In this document: piece after piece, positions 46,976 to 53,482 of the stretch
How positions within the stretch are numbered: the first letter of the stretch is position 1
Layout of the letters: each line of letters begins with the position of its first letter
From: Chloroflexi bacterium bin125
Lineage (GTDB): Bacteria > Chloroflexota > Dehalococcoidia > Bin125
Assembly: GCA_002239025.1 (NCBI GenBank)
Contig: MPNM01000010.1
Location: 1-64,000, forward strand
Length of the DNA stretch: 64,000 nt
Direction: 5' to 3'
The notes under the pieces: generated by a model
The model's database searches: none
What the model was told of the DNA's origin: nothing
What the model saw: only the letters and a program-made list of their open reading frames with translations
Program-made: the position numbers and the translations under genes

Positions 46976-48874
46976 ATGTCCGACAGCGCACGGCTCCCGT
47001 CTCGTGTCTTGATTGCCAATCGCGGCGAAATTGCGACACGGATCATCCGGACTTGTCATCTCCTGAACGTACAAACTGTTGCCGTCTACTCGGATGCCGA
47101 CCGGTCAGCACCGCACGTAGCGGCGGCCGATCAGGCTGGGCGCGTCGGCGCTGCGCCAGCGTCCGAGAGCTATCTCAACGTTCCCGCGTTGATTGACGCG
47201 GCTCAATTGACGGGCGCCGACGCGGTTCATCCCGGCTACGGATTCCTCTCGGAGCGCGCCGATTTCGCGCGTGCAGTGGTGGATGCGGGACTGATCTGGA
47301 TCGGGCCGCCGCCTGATGTGATCGACGCGCTGGGCGACAAGGTGTCGGCCCGGCGCTTGGCGTCGCAGGCCGGTGTTCCCGTGGCCGACGGTATCGAGGG
47401 CGATCTCGGCGACGCTGCCCTAGCCTCGGGCATTGCCGAACTGGGCTTTCCGGTCATGGTCAAGGCCGCGGCGGGCGGCGGCGGACGCGGGATGCGCTTG
47501 CTCAGGAGCGCTGAAGATGCGCCGGATGGATTGGAAGCGGCCGTCGCAGGAGCTCGACGCGAGGCTCAGGCAGCGTTTGGCGATGGGCGACTACTCGTCG
47601 AACGAGCACTGTCGGACGGGCGTCACGTCGAGGTACAGGTGATGTTCGACGTACACGGCCACGGCATCCATCTTGGCGAACGCGATTGCTCGGTCCAGCG
47701 TCGTCGACAGAAGGTAATCGAGGAATCGCCGTCTCCGGCGGTCGATTCAGCGTTGCGAGCCAGGCTGGGCGAGGCGGCGCTAGGCGTCTGCCGAGCCGCT
47801 GGCTATGTCGGGGCTGGGACCGTCGAGTTCCTGCTGATGCCGGACGGCTCGTTCGTCTTCCTGGAAGTGAATGCCCGCATCCAGGTCGAGCATCCGGTGA
47901 CGGAAGCGGTCACGGGACTTGACCTCGTCGAGCTACAACTCCGTGTCGCTGGTGGCGAAACCCTGGCAATCTCGCAGGATGATGTGCAGTTCGATGGACA
48001 CGCGATCGAGACTCGAATCTATGCCGAGGATCCGTCGCGAGGATACATGCCCTCGACTGGCCGGCTGCGGTGGTTTGCTCCACTGGATGAACGAGCGCGG
48101 CATGATGTCGGTCCAGTGACCGGCGATGTCGTCACGGCTCACTACGACCCGATGCTGGCCAAGACAATCGTGCATGCCCCGAGTCGCGGCGAATCGGTCG
48201 AACGCGCTTTGCAAGCACTGGACGGATGGGCGATTGACGGAGTGACGACCAACCTGGCTCAGCTTTCGGCGATCCTGAGATCTGACGACTTTTGCGACGG
48301 CGAAGTCGATATTGCGTGGCTGGAACGAGTCGAGCTAGCCGAACGGTCAGTTCCGTTTGAGGCCTTGTCGGTTGCAGCGCGGGCTGAAGCCGAGCAGGGC
48401 GCGTGGAGATCGTCAGGCGAGCTGATGCGCAAGTATCTGCTGCATGGGCGATCGTATGAGATCAGCATCGCGCGGACGACTGCAGGGTGGCAGGCGACCG
48501 TTGATGGTGAATCGGTTCCGGTTCCGAGTGGTCGCGACTGGTCGGCCGATGTCGGCTCACGAGGCGTCGTGGTGTCGAACGGCGGACAACGATGGGTGTT
48601 CTTGAGAGCACGACGACAGCGGACCGCCGGCAGGAATCGGCGTGCTGGCGGAGCGAACGTGGTTCGCGCCCCAATGCCGGGCACGATGATTGAGGTACTG
48701 GTCGCAGTCGGCGATGAGGTGGAAGCGGGACAAACGCTCGTGGTGATGGAAGCGATGAAGATCGAGCACCTGCTTACCGCTCCGAACGGTGGGGTTGTGA
48801 GCGCGGTGCATACGTCAGCGGGCGCGTCCGTTGACGAGGACACGGTGTTGATCGAGCTGGGAGCAACCACATGA
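46976..48874 (+). CDS. Acyl-CoA carboxylase alpha chain (biotin carboxylase + biotin carrier)
   Basis: A 632-residue chain with biotin carboxylase (residues 9-450: RVLIANRGEIATRIIRTC, the ATP-grasp loop KAAAGGGGRGMRL, EVNARIQVEHPVTEA) and a C-terminal biotin-carrier domain whose biotinylated Lys is K595 in VVMEAMKIEH. The order matches the alpha chain of propionyl- or methylcrotonyl-CoA carboxylase rather than two-gene acetyl-CoA carboxylase. No carboxyltransferase (beta) gene lies nearby, so the partner must be elsewhere. It leads an operon with two peptidase genes, overlapping the next by ATGA. Confidence 0.93.
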   Translation: MSDSARLPSRVLIANRGEIATRIIRTCHLLNVQTVAVYSDADRSAPHVAAADQAGRVGAAPASESYLNVPALIDAAQLTGADAVHPGYGFLSERADFARAVVDAGLIWIGPPPDVIDALGDKVSARRLASQAGVPVADGIEGDLGDAALASGIAELGFPVMVKAAAGGGGRGMRLLRSAEDAPDGLEAAVAGARREAQAAFGDGRLLVERALSDGRHVEVQVMFDVHGHGIHLGERDCSVQRRRQKVIEESPSPAVDSALRARLGEAALGVCRAAGYVGAGTVEFLLMPDGSFVFLEVNARIQVEHPVTEAVTGLDLVELQLRVAGGETLAISQDDVQFDGHAIETRIYAEDPSRGYMPSTGRLRWFAPLDERARHDVGPVTGDVVTAHYDPMLAKTIVHAPSRGESVERALQALDGWAIDGVTTNLAQLSAILRSDDFCDGEVDIAWLERVELAERSVPFEALSVAARAEAEQGAWRSSGELMRKYLLHGRSYEISIARTTAGWQATVDGESVPVPSGRDWSADVGSRGVVVSNGGQRWVFLRARRQRTAGRNRRAGGANVVRAPMPGTMIEVLVAVGDEVEAGQTLVVMEAMKIEHLLTAPNGGVVSAVHTSAGASVDEDTVLIELGATT

Positions 48875-50283
48875 ACGCTGGCGAACAGGCTGGAGTCCTG
48901 AGGCAGCGACGGCAGCGAGTCGAGACTGCTTGGTCGGGCATTGACGTCGATGGTCCTGTGTTGATCCCGGCCAGTCTGCCGATCCCGATTGATGGCACGG
49001 ACCAATTCCACGAGTTTCATGCGCATCCCGAGTTTCAGTACTTGACCGGCGTCGCCGAACCCGGCGCTGCCCTGGCCTGGGAGCGTGAGCGCGGTTGGAC
49101 GCTGTTTGCGCCGTCGCTGTCGGTCGAGGATTTGGTCTGGATGTCTGCGCCGCCTTCGGCTGATGCGCTGGCCAAAGCAACCGGCGTCGGGCGATCGGTT
49201 GACCGGTCGGAGCTGGCCGGCTGGCTGGAATCGCAGCGCGGTCGCGGCTTGGTCTTGCTGGGATCACGCGACATCGAGACGCGGGCCACGGAATATGGCG
49301 TCGAAGCCTGGTCGACCCTGGAAGCAGTGGTTGACGAGGATGCGACCGATCGGCTGGGCAAGGCGCTGGCGAAGTTGCGGCGGGCGAAGGATGCCGTCGA
49401 GATGGATCGGATGACTCGCGCTGTGGACGCTGCTGTGGAGGGTCACCTTGCGGCGCAACGGTTGGCTCGACACGGACTGACTGAGCGCGCACTGCAAATC
49501 GAGATGGAAGCGGAGTTTTTCCGCCAGGGCGGCGCGCGGACGGCCTATGGGTCGATCATCGGCTCGGGTCCGAATTCTGCGATCCTGCATGGGACGCCGG
49601 GCGAACGGGTGATGTCGGACGGAGAGCTGGTGTTGATCGACGCTGGCGCCGAAATTGAGGGTTACGCCTCCGACGTGAGCCGCACATTCCCCGTGTCTGC
49701 GTCGTTCACGACAATTCAACGCGAGTTGTACAACGTCGTGCTGGCCGCTCAGCAGGAGGCGATTGCAGCGGCAGGACCGGGTGTCGAGTACAAGTCGTTG
49801 CATCTGCAAGCCTCGGCGACAATTGCGCAGGGGCTGGTTGATGTGGGCGTCTTGCGAGGGTCGGTTGATGAACTTGTCGCGGCTGACGCCCACGCGCTGT
49901 TCTTCTCGCATGGTCTGGGACACATGCTGGGGCTGTCGACGCATGACTGCGGCGGTTATCTCGAAGGTCGCGTGCCCGAGGATCGGTTTGGGCTCGCCTA
50001 TCTGCGAGCCGACCTGCCGCTACAGCCGGGGTATGTCGTGACGATCGAACCAGGCGTCTACTTTGTTCCGGCGCTGCTCAACGATCCTGCCCGCCGTGAG
50101 CGATACGCGGAGATGGTGAACTGGGACGTGGTGGATGGGATGCTGGACTTTGGCGGCATTCGGATTGAGGACGATGTCCTGATCACGACCGATGGTTGCG
50201 ACGTGATGAGCGGCGCTCTGCCGTCGGCGGCGGCGGAGATCGAAGCGATTCGCCGGGATGCGTTGGGTGTGACGAGTGACTGA
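48871..50283 (+). CDS. M24 family metallopeptidase, Xaa-Pro aminopeptidase type
   Basis: A 470-residue peptidase that would release an N-terminal residue in front of proline. The N-terminal domain (about 1-175) includes the HAHPEFQYLTGVAEPGA motif of AMP_N proteins. The dinuclear metal site is formed by Asp in LIDAGAEI, Asp in YASDVSRTF, His in GLGHMLGL, Glu in TIEPGVYF and Glu in IRIEDDVL. ATGA overlap with the upstream gene and an eight-base overlap with the S9 gene show tight translational coupling. Confidence 0.93.
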   Translation: MNAGEQAGVLRQRRQRVETAWSGIDVDGPVLIPASLPIPIDGTDQFHEFHAHPEFQYLTGVAEPGAALAWERERGWTLFAPSLSVEDLVWMSAPPSADALAKATGVGRSVDRSELAGWLESQRGRGLVLLGSRDIETRATEYGVEAWSTLEAVVDEDATDRLGKALAKLRRAKDAVEMDRMTRAVDAAVEGHLAAQRLARHGLTERALQIEMEAEFFRQGGARTAYGSIIGSGPNSAILHGTPGERVMSDGELVLIDAGAEIEGYASDVSRTFPVSASFTTIQRELYNVVLAAQQEAIAAAGPGVEYKSLHLQASATIAQGLVDVGVLRGSVDELVAADAHALFFSHGLGHMLGLSTHDCGGYLEGRVPEDRFGLAYLRADLPLQPGYVVTIEPGVYFVPALLNDPARRERYAEMVNWDVVDGMLDFGGIRIEDDVLITTDGCDVMSGALPSAAAEIEAIRRDALGVTSD

Positions 50284-52387
50284 GCGACTGACGATCTCGG
50301 ATGTGGCGACGTATCCGCGTCCAGGCATGGACGCGCCGGGGATGGTTGGGTTCACGCCCGACAGTTCTGCAATGACATGGTTGCACGCCGCCGATGGCGG
50401 ACTCGTCAGGTCGTTATGGCGGATCGATGTGCTGAGCGGTGAACGCTCCGTAATCTCCGGACCTGGCGCTGATTCCCCGATGTCTCGCGAGGAAGAGTTG
50501 CTGCGCGAGCGCACACGAACACGGGAACTTGGAGTGTCGTCCTACTCGTGGGCACGAGAGTCTGACCTTCCTGTGCTGATGATTCCGGGTCCGACGGTTC
50601 GGGTTTCCATCGACGGTGAGCCGCTGCGCGAACTAGCCGGATCCGAGGGCGCGCTGACTCCCGCACTGAGCCCAGACGGTACACAGTTGTCATTTGTGCG
50701 TGGTGGTGAGCTGTTCGTAGTCGATGTCGATGGCCAATCGGAGGCGACTCAACTCACTTCGGGCGCAGAAGACGGCCTAACTCACGGCCTCGCCGACTAC
50801 ATCGCGCAGGAAGAGTTTGGACAGCTGCGCGGCCACTGGTGGTCGAAGGACGGACAGATCGCCTACCTACGAGTCGACGAGCGGCACGTCGCGCCGTATC
50901 CAATCGTGCACCAGGGCTCGACCGATGTTGATGTCGAGACGCATCGATATCCGTTCTCAGGCGAAGAGAACGCGCACGTGTCCCTCGGGATTGCGGACCT
51001 CCCTAGCGGCGAGCATCGGGAACTGCCACTTCCTGAAGAAGATGGATATCTCGTTCGCGTTGCATGGTGGGCCGACTCAAGCGACGGACAACGCCTGGTG
51101 GCGCAGTGGATCAATCGCGATCAGAACCGTCTGCGATTGTTGGCGTTTTCGGAGTCGGGCGAAGCAGCTGTGCTGATCGATGAGACGCAGGAGCCGTGGG
51201 TCAATGTGGCCGACGCCGCCCGCGGATTAGCCGATGGCACCTTCCTCTGGTCGTCGGAATCAAGCGGGTATCGGCACTTGTCGCTGCGGGCAGAGGACGG
51301 TTCGGAGATTCGCACTCTGACGTCGGGCGAATGGGTTGTTGATGGCGTGATCGGAGTGGACGAGGACTCTCGTTGGGTTTACTTCAGTAGCACTCGCGGA
51401 TCTCCGTTGGAACGACGGGTCGAACGGGTCTCGCTGGATGGCGGTGAGATCGAAACGCTGTCGGAGCCGGGCGGCGTGCATGGCGCATCCCTGTCTCGCG
51501 ATGGCAAATGGCTGGCGATGATGAACTCATCGCTGGGCGCTGCGCCGAACATTTCGCTGGTCGCTACCGATGGTTCAGAGCAACGATCGCTGTATAAATC
51601 AGAAGCATCAATCGGCCAACTTGGGCTGGACGCGCCGGAGTTGCGCACATTTTCGGCAGCCGACGGTACGACGCTCTACGGAGCGCTCTATCGACCAGAC
51701 AGCGAAGGTCCGCATCCCGTGTTGGTCGCCGTGTATGGCGGGCCGCATGCTCAGACGGTGCTTGACGCCTGGGGGTTGACCGTCGATCTGCGGGCGCAGT
51801 ACCTGGCGCAGCAGGGTTACCTCGTGCTGAAGCTGGACAATCGGGGAATGGCTGGACGCGGACTGGAGTTTGAGGCGCACCTGCATCGGCAGATGGGCAC
51901 GATCGAGGTGGACGATCAGGCGGCGGCAGTGGAACAGCTCGCCATCGAGGGGCTGGCCGATGTTGACCGTGTCGGCGTCTATGGCTGGTCGTACGGCGGC
52001 TACATGACGGTGATGTCGATGTTGCGCCGACCCGATCTGTTCAAGGTTGGCGTCTCGGGCGCGCCGGTCTCGGACTGGGACGGCTACGACACCGGCTACA
52101 CCGAGCGATACATGGGTACGCCGCAGAACAACGCCGAGGGATACCGCGAAGGCTCACTCCTGACCCACGCCGACAAGCTCGAGGGTCAACTGCTGCTCAT
52201 TCACGGCGGTGTCGATGAAAACGTTCACTTCCGCCATACGGCAAGATTGATCACAGCGCTGACGGCAGCCGACCGTGACTACGACCTGCTGATGTTCCCC
52301 GAGGAGCGTCACATGCCCCGAGATCAGGCCGGACTGGAGTACCAGGAACGCCGAGTCGCCCGCTACTTCGAGCGCCACCTGAAGTGA
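50276..52387 (+). CDS. S9 family peptidase (dipeptidyl-peptidase IV type)
   Basis: A 703-residue serine peptidase with an N-terminal beta-propeller (about 20-440) and a C-terminal catalytic domain. The triad is Ser in YGWSYGGYM, Asp in IHGGVDENVH and His in PEERHMPRD. It has no signal peptide, so acts on imported peptides, probably with the M24 enzyme on proline-containing ones. GTG at 50276 overlaps the stop of the M24 gene by eight bases. Confidence 0.93.
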   Translation: MTERLTISDVATYPRPGMDAPGMVGFTPDSSAMTWLHAADGGLVRSLWRIDVLSGERSVISGPGADSPMSREEELLRERTRTRELGVSSYSWARESDLPVLMIPGPTVRVSIDGEPLRELAGSEGALTPALSPDGTQLSFVRGGELFVVDVDGQSEATQLTSGAEDGLTHGLADYIAQEEFGQLRGHWWSKDGQIAYLRVDERHVAPYPIVHQGSTDVDVETHRYPFSGEENAHVSLGIADLPSGEHRELPLPEEDGYLVRVAWWADSSDGQRLVAQWINRDQNRLRLLAFSESGEAAVLIDETQEPWVNVADAARGLADGTFLWSSESSGYRHLSLRAEDGSEIRTLTSGEWVVDGVIGVDEDSRWVYFSSTRGSPLERRVERVSLDGGEIETLSEPGGVHGASLSRDGKWLAMMNSSLGAAPNISLVATDGSEQRSLYKSEASIGQLGLDAPELRTFSAADGTTLYGALYRPDSEGPHPVLVAVYGGPHAQTVLDAWGLTVDLRAQYLAQQGYLVLKLDNRGMAGRGLEFEAHLHRQMGTIEVDDQAAAVEQLAIEGLADVDRVGVYGWSYGGYMTVMSMLRRPDLFKVGVSGAPVSDWDGYDTGYTERYMGTPQNNAEGYREGSLLTHADKLEGQLLLIHGGVDENVHFRHTARLITALTAADRDYDLLMFPEERHMPRDQAGLEYQERRVARYFERHLK

Positions 52388-52414
52388 TCATCAACTGAGC
52401 ATCCGGGAGGAATG

Positions 52415-53206
52415 ATGCCGATTCCCAGCACTGCAATCGACGCCGCGACGCTTTTGGGCGTGGCTCCCTCGGCGGACCGCGACACGATCCGTGATCGCTA
52501 CCGGCGGCTGGCCCGGATTTACCATCCCGATGCGAATCCCGACGACGAAGCGGCCGGCATGCGCATGCTTGAGCTGAACGCGGCAGTCGATTTGTTGCTG
52601 GGCTCGGATACGCCCACGGTTGAGATTGAGTTTGAGCCTCAGCGCAGTGACCGCGCGCTGACCACGAGGGAACGTCGCCGCGAGGCTCGCATCCGCGATG
52701 CGCTGCAACACCTGCCCTATGGCATCTATGTCATCGGCACGGTCACAGCCGACGGCCGGCCCAACGCAATGGTCGCTGACTGGGTAATGCAGGTCTCGTT
52801 CCGGCCTCGAATCATTTGTGTCTCGTTCGAGCGCGACGCCGCCTCGCTGCGCAATCTGCGCGAGACGCGGCAACTCACTGTGAGTCTGCTGCCGGAGTCG
52901 GGCATGGACCTGGCGGCGAAGTTTCTGCAGCCAACAGATCCGTCCAAGATTGAAGGTCGTTCGGCCGAGTTCGCGGCGCCTGACAAGATGCGAGGCGTGG
53001 CCTATCAGCAGCTCGAGCATGCTTCACTCGATGGCGGCGCGCCGGTGCTTGAGGACTCGCTGGCCTGGATCGCTGCTGATGCGCAGCAGTTCATTCCCGT
53101 CGGCGAGCACATCCTGGCGCTCTGCCGAGTGTTCGACGGCGATACGTCGATCATTGACGAAGGCCCGCTGACCTCGCTCTATACCGGCTGGCACTATGGC
53201 GGCTAA
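52415..53206 (+). CDS. J-domain / flavin-reductase-like fusion protein
   Basis: A 263-residue fusion. Residues 5-65 are a J-domain-like module: AATLLGVAPSADRDTIRDRY, then RRLARIYHPDANPDD with the HPD signature, then a helix to LLLGS. Residues 90-263 are an FMN-binding flavin-reductase-like split barrel (YGIYVIGTVTADGRPNAMVADW, FRPRIICVSFERDAASL). GGGAGGA four bases before the second ATG makes 52415 the better start. The gene is 27 bases after the S9 gene and probably ends that operon. The HPD would let it call Hsp70 (DnaK); the flavin domain may handle a reductant. No such fusion is familiar to me. Confidence 0.85.
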   Translation: MPIPSTAIDAATLLGVAPSADRDTIRDRYRRLARIYHPDANPDDEAAGMRMLELNAAVDLLLGSDTPTVEIEFEPQRSDRALTTRERRREARIRDALQHLPYGIYVIGTVTADGRPNAMVADWVMQVSFRPRIICVSFERDAASLRNLRETRQLTVSLLPESGMDLAAKFLQPTDPSKIEGRSAEFAAPDKMRGVAYQQLEHASLDGGAPVLEDSLAWIAADAQQFIPVGEHILALCRVFDGDTSIIDEGPLTSLYTGWHYGG

Positions 53207-53296
53207 GCGTCGTACACACATCGAGCGTCGTCATTCAACACCCCGGAATCTCAGGGTCAAACAGCCGCTATTGGACACATACAAAGCTGATTCCGA

Positions 53297-53464
53297 TGCC
53301 CCGTGCTTGACACGGGGCCCAGAGCAGCCAACGTTGTTCGCGAGATGAACGTTCGCTTCGCACAGTTGTCCAGGGCGAAGGGCTCCGCGCGACAGGTGAG
53401 GCAAGGGTGACCTACAAACTGCGCGCGACGTGCGAGGTCTGGGCCCCGTGTCAAGCACGGGGCA
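53297..53464. repeat. 27-bp perfect inverted repeat pair flanking 114 bases (family D)
   Basis: TGCCCCGTGCTTGACACGGG continuing to CCCAGA at 53297-53323 recurs exactly reversed at 53438-53464. Each arm is itself a hairpin (CCCCGTG / CACGGGG). It fills the gap between the J-domain fusion and the MFS gene. Confidence 0.85.
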
Positions 53465-53482
53465 ACGGAGATAGAGGCATTT

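Follow-up and report, generated by a model that had tools for sequence, protein, structure and literature searches.

We analysed a window of 64,000 nucleotides from contig MPNM01000010.1 of Chloroflexi bacterium bin125, and the gene studied here, which we call J-FR, encodes an N-terminal J-domain joined by a linker to a C-terminal flavin-reductase-type split barrel (Table 1). The coding part of its open reading frame occupies 52415-53203 (+). Translation most likely starts at the ATG at 52415 in preference to the one at 52412, because the orthologues, which open with M-P-I-P or an equivalent, start there and because the GGGAGG lies just upstream. Residue numbers are nevertheless counted with M1 at 52412. 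Two peptidase genes precede J-FR on the same strand, overlapping each other, and 27 nt separate the second of them from J-FR. Downstream, between J-FR and an MFS gene, there is an element of about 178 bp (53292-53469) with 32-nt inverted ends that are 97% complementary and lie 114 nt apart. Further near-full-length copies at 69-72% identity are found on contigs C12, C50 and C51 of this genome, along with end fragments, and the element looks like a MITE.

Table 1. Positions in the window of J-FR, its domains and motifs, and the genes before it.
Feature	Position	Strand	Basis and remarks
M24 metallopeptidase, aminopeptidase P-like	48871..50283	+	Pfam; upstream, neighbour only within the genus (synteny)
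S9 prolyl-oligopeptidase / DPP-IV-like	50276..52387	+	Pfam; upstream, neighbour only within the genus (synteny)
GGGAGG, probable ribosome binding site	52405..52410	+	Sequence; inference
J-FR gene	52415..53206	+	Open reading frame and orthologue start sites; 263 aa plus stop
J-domain, residues 14-62, helices I-III	52451..52597	+	Pfam DnaJ, E 2.8e-11; AlphaFold helices
HPD motif, residues 38-40	52523..52531	+	Sequence; between helices II and III
Variable linker, residues 65-92	52604..52687	+	pN/pS 0.33; low pLDDT at 61-80
Flavin-reductase split-barrel domain, residues 99-247	52706..53152	+	Pfam PF01613, E 3.9e-24; Foldseek
G-[D/E]-H motif, residues 231-233	53102..53110	+	phmmer; aligns with the GDH motif of PheA2/DszD-type reductases
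C-terminal TGWHYGG	53183..53203	+	Common to Thermus 1wgb, as TGWFYGG

The earlier note had read the gene as a J-domain with the HPD signature fused at the N-terminus of a flavin-reductase-like domain, and both domains do pass their curated Pfam cut-offs, with the coordinates right. The DnaJ profile scores 43.8 bits against a cut-off of 27.8 over profile positions 5-53 of 63, predicted helices flank the HPD, and the J-domain passes in all four divergent fused proteins tested, with relatives scoring 31.0-43.0 bits. The HPD itself is unvaried in every fused protein, including that of genome G140, and in a J protein of genome G151 that is described below. The closest PDB matches of this half by sequence are E. 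coli DnaJ and CbpA, and the J-domains of the fused proteins are 30-39% identical to E. coli DnaJ. A model of the family's J-domains gives at least 116 bits on 18 family proteins and at most 71 bits on other J-domains among the class matches listed. By these scores it is a sharply distinct subfamily that, among those matches, is confined to the window's own family. Besides DnaJ and Flavin_Reduct, the Pfam search of J-FR returned no G/F region, zinc finger or DnaJ C-terminal domain, and no ferredoxin family.

The other half scores 85.9 bits with Flavin_Reduct (PF01613), for which the cut-off is 27, and Foldseek aligns the barrel with 1wgb, 8ct0, PheA2, HpaC and SMOB (E 1e-14 to 1e-11, probability 1.00) at an identity of about 24% or less to the solved flavin reductases. 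Like the PF01613 reductases of this kind (Thermus 1wgb, PheA2, HpaC, StyB/SMOB, CtcQ), J-FR has the split-barrel fold and the G-[D/E]-H region, of which G231 and H233 are unvaried among the fused proteins; unlike J-FR, none of the matched reductases carries a J-domain. Thermus 1wgb is also the top PDB match by sequence and shares the ending TGWxYGG, which in the form TGWxYxG is present in most standalone Chloroflexota homologues. J-FR falls far under every NCBIfam equivalog cut-off for the named two-component reductases StyB, HpaC, HsaB and RutF (for StyB, 41.6 against 200). The fold of the FMN-binding split barrel that had been claimed is borne out by Pfam and Foldseek, and FMN binding itself rests on family membership. 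We describe this half as a predicted flavin reductase, with flavin binding assigned by family.

An AlphaFold model computed on 37 rows (mean pLDDT 84) replaced an earlier, poor one from 7 sequences (pLDDT 64). It places the three J helices at 7-14, 22-36 and 47-62 (model numbering), loses confidence at 61-80 and then enters the barrel. The linker is poorly conserved and its length differs among the fused proteins. Structure prediction had been proposed earlier as a check on both modules, and the model does contain a predicted J-fold. It has no counterpart of the fourth helix (IV) of canonical J-domains, residues 63-83 being without a helix. We treat this helix as a trait of canonical J-domains that is not decisive for class C, because membership of class C is defined by the J-domain being the only part in common with DnaJ (PMC8215388).

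The fusion is found in 17 of the 20 genomes of the window's family, the 20 including G250, which is only 79% complete and may lack the gene for that reason, and it spans three genera: 14 of the 15 genomes of the window's genus, plus G140, G232 and G241 from two other genera, in which J-FR is 46-51% identical. In G223, the one member of the window's genus without it, a true loss is unsupported; the assembly breaks off at the upstream S9 gene, which reaches to 3 bases from a contig end, leaving the next gene unassembled. No fusion was found elsewhere among the matches listed for 393 genomes of the class and 400 of the phylum, which were reductase-only or J-only. Several of those that extend further upstream run through stop codons. 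The reductase frames of loci L102-L114, read stop to stop, hold no HPD. Across 84,980 species, a pattern scan found 11 relatives of full length (83-87% identity), each of them a Dehalococcoidia (Chloroflexota) MAG, the remaining loci retained having only a J-domain match, and 72,556 plasmids gave no match over 80% of the query. Phyla beyond Chloroflexota were covered by the pattern scan alone, and it is sensitive to close relatives only, so the fusion may occur more widely. An assembly artefact or chance is ruled out as its source by its being kept in 17 genomes; the full-length gene, at 83-87% identity, is present in 11 genomes that were assembled separately. The description of the architecture as uncommon is upheld, in that it is restricted to one small family of uncultured Chloroflexota among the genomes sampled and we found no literature that names a J-domain/flavin-reductase fusion, in a search outside of which lay the survey of prokaryotic J-proteins by Barriot et al. 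(2020). Neither of the findings that the earlier note named as counting against it, the lack of a J-fold or the same fusion in many well-studied proteins, was made.

The pairing is real and maintained by natural selection. Among 12 orthologues of the genus the J-domain has a mean pN/pS of 0.099, against 0.111 in the reductase and 0.331 in the linker. Each value is one mean divided by another, with no fitted model, and synonymous sites differ a good deal (pS 0.5-0.6). Purifying selection on the J-domain is thus, within the genus, as strong as that on the reductase, and its ratio is three times lower than that of the linker, which argues that the J-domain is in use and is no decaying add-on. As to how it arose, the standalone reductase without a J-domain is widespread in the class and is the form seen in other families, so the J-domain looks like an addition, and the simplest account is that it was joined to a standalone reductase inside the window's family. 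Two separate origins were considered, as the reductase tree needs two changes, yet a single clade is not rejected (p-AU 0.33).

A fourth genus, represented by G151 (94% complete, 6 contigs), carries the same J subfamily on another C-terminus. Its protein of 334 residues (L115:7189-8190, minus strand) has a J-domain 57% identical to the window's, then a charged stretch and a C-terminal part without a Pfam family, and no domain besides DnaJ was matched by Pfam. A close relative of the reductase half was not found in G151, which has two other PF01613 genes. The family thus offers a natural experiment, with one J subfamily on two different partners alongside standalone versions of one of them.

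We would place J-FR among the class C J-domain proteins, as a member with an apparently new partner domain. Like the class C proteins HscB, DjlA and AtcJ, it has an HPD-bearing J-domain and lacks the G/F, zinc-finger and DnaJ C-terminal domains, and in both cases the rest of the protein presumably confers specificity. To our knowledge no bacterial class C member with a flavin-reductase domain has been described, and the partner domain of this J-domain appears to be new. Coupling of a J-domain to a redox module is known from ERdj5 (DNAJC10), with its thioredoxin domains, and 3apo and 5ayk are among the PDB J-domain matches of J-FR; unlike J-FR, ERdj5 is a eukaryotic ER protein of thiol-disulphide chemistry with no flavin domain. 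The nearest known kind is DnaJ-Fer (CDJ3-5) of plants, green algae and Thaumarchaeota, whose exact function was left unsolved (PMC3564930) and which, like J-FR, has a small redox domain behind its J-domain and is restricted to certain lineages. Hsp70 binding is reported for CDJ3/4 (PMC3564930) and is predicted for J-FR. The two differ in the redox domain, an Fe-S ferredoxin in one and a flavin-reductase split barrel in the other, and in the lineages that carry them.

The targets of Hsp70 are set by J-domain proteins, and a J-domain fused to and co-selected with a flavin-reductase domain would suggest that flavin enzymes have a chaperone service of their own, of which we know of no bacterial example. 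The reading we prefer, to which we give an even chance, makes J-FR a class C J-domain protein that uses its reductase-type barrel to direct DnaK to a target connected with flavin. The N-terminal J-domain, sitting on a loose linker, would bind ATP-loaded DnaK through the HPD and the basic helix II. The barrel would serve as the address, bringing DnaK to the reductase itself, to its dimer or flavoenzyme partner, or to apo-flavoproteins, and ATP-driven binding and release by DnaK could then help to fold, flavin-load or disassemble that partner. Recruitment of DnaK is something we infer; the client and the purpose are a guess.

The contact residues bear on this directly. Those of DnaJ include R22, K26, R27 and the HPD, and in all systems examined Hsp70 is no longer stimulated once the H or D of the HPD has been replaced (PMC8215388). 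J-FR of the window's genus retains R22, Y25, K26 (as R) and R27, whereas K48 and K51 are absent from every family J-domain compared; R22 and R27 are missing in the genus of G232 and G241 (g4) and R22 in G140. The positive contact residues R22, K26, R27, K48 and K51 are thus three of five in the window's genus and fewer in the others. The genome itself has one full-length DnaK (C51:93859-95643; locus L124:1489-3375), one further HSP70-family match, which is short, and four genes with a J-domain. This DnaK aligns nearly end to end with that of the DnaK-J complex 5nro, and by hand counting on that alignment, with the contact list of PMC8215388, it has the HPD-touched residues R167, Q378, L391 and P419 as well as E206 and D477. 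It lacks the stretch 208-211 of E. coli DnaK, hence D211, and has Q for E217, these two being acidic J-contact positions. From these residues, HPD coupling to DnaK is likely kept and electrostatic docking is probably altered.

The invariant HPD and the intact HPD contacts of the native DnaK count for DnaK recruitment, and CDJ3/4 are a precedent for a J-domain with a redox domain that binds Hsp70. The missing K48 and K51, the losses in g4 and G140 and the changes at D211 and E217 count against it, as do the lack of helix IV and of a conserved neighbour across genera that would hint at a client. The loss of K48 and K51 throughout and of R22 and R27 in g4, together with the low identity to DnaJ and the sharp distinctness of the subfamily, could mean that the J-domain has no DnaK function and is now a binding, dimer or scaffold module; with the HPD kept in every member, G140 and G151 included, we find this unlikely. 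A somewhat smaller chance goes to action in cis, in which DnaK keeps the reductase half soluble or loads and unloads its flavin and there is no other client. A standalone reductase common in the class with a J-domain attached in one family, and gene contexts that vary across genera, would suit such a self-contained function, but close standalone homologues at about 50% identity do without a J-domain, and G140 carries one fused and one standalone copy. It is also conceivable, if improbable, that the flavin domain is a sensor, letting the J-domain reach DnaK or not according to its redox state or to whether flavin or NAD(P)H is bound. The strong conservation of both halves permits such coupling and redox-active J fusions are known from CDJ3/4, but no coupling feature is visible in the sequence and the linker varies. 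Less probable still is a flavin-gated co-chaperone, in which the barrel reads the NAD(P)H/flavin redox state and so controls the place and time of DnaK action, the apo-flavoenzymes of an LLM-rich lineage being one example of a target.

The gene neighbourhood was the basis of another proposal, that J-FR ends an operon with two proline-related peptidases. Within the genus the same-strand adjacency, the overlap and the short gap agree with this, and the order BC-M24-S9-J-FR-MFS-VOC-patatin-CoA transferase is kept in 11 of 11 loci, but the link fails outside it: in G140, G232 and G241 the fused gene has none of these genes nearby, and a search at E 1e-30 gave no match to the S9 gene in G140, G151 or G250. 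A functional tie to the peptidases is therefore rejected beyond the genus, and a role of J-FR in protein turnover with them is highly improbable. In G140 the neighbours include an O-methyltransferase, and in G232 a FAD/NAD oxidoreductase about 300 bases downstream and genes that by eye resemble those of the shikimate pathway. With contexts that differ in this way the gene is not tied to one neighbourhood, and outside the window's genus no flavin-dependent oxygenase lies next to it.

Returning to DnaK delivery to a flavin-related target, the genome as a whole makes flavoenzymes plausible clients, though this is no proof. Its 3.7 Mb hold at least 60 genes of PF00296 (luciferase/LLM family) against four of PF01613. 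Many LLM proteins use F420 instead of FMN. Expansions of flavin-dependent monooxygenases are known in SAR202 Chloroflexota (PMC10444878). Service of J-FR to LLM oxidoreductases is thus possible, on circumstantial grounds. Upstream of the standalone reductase of G378 (L103), two genes away, lies an LLM-like gene, so labelled by eye; a general link was rejected because no homologue of that gene occurs at the other reductase loci fetched. On contig C62 of the same genome as J-FR there is another class C-like protein (L003:805-1674, minus strand), in which a long charged stretch, probably a coiled coil, comes after the J-domain, and its gene directly follows one that by eye is flavodoxin-like.
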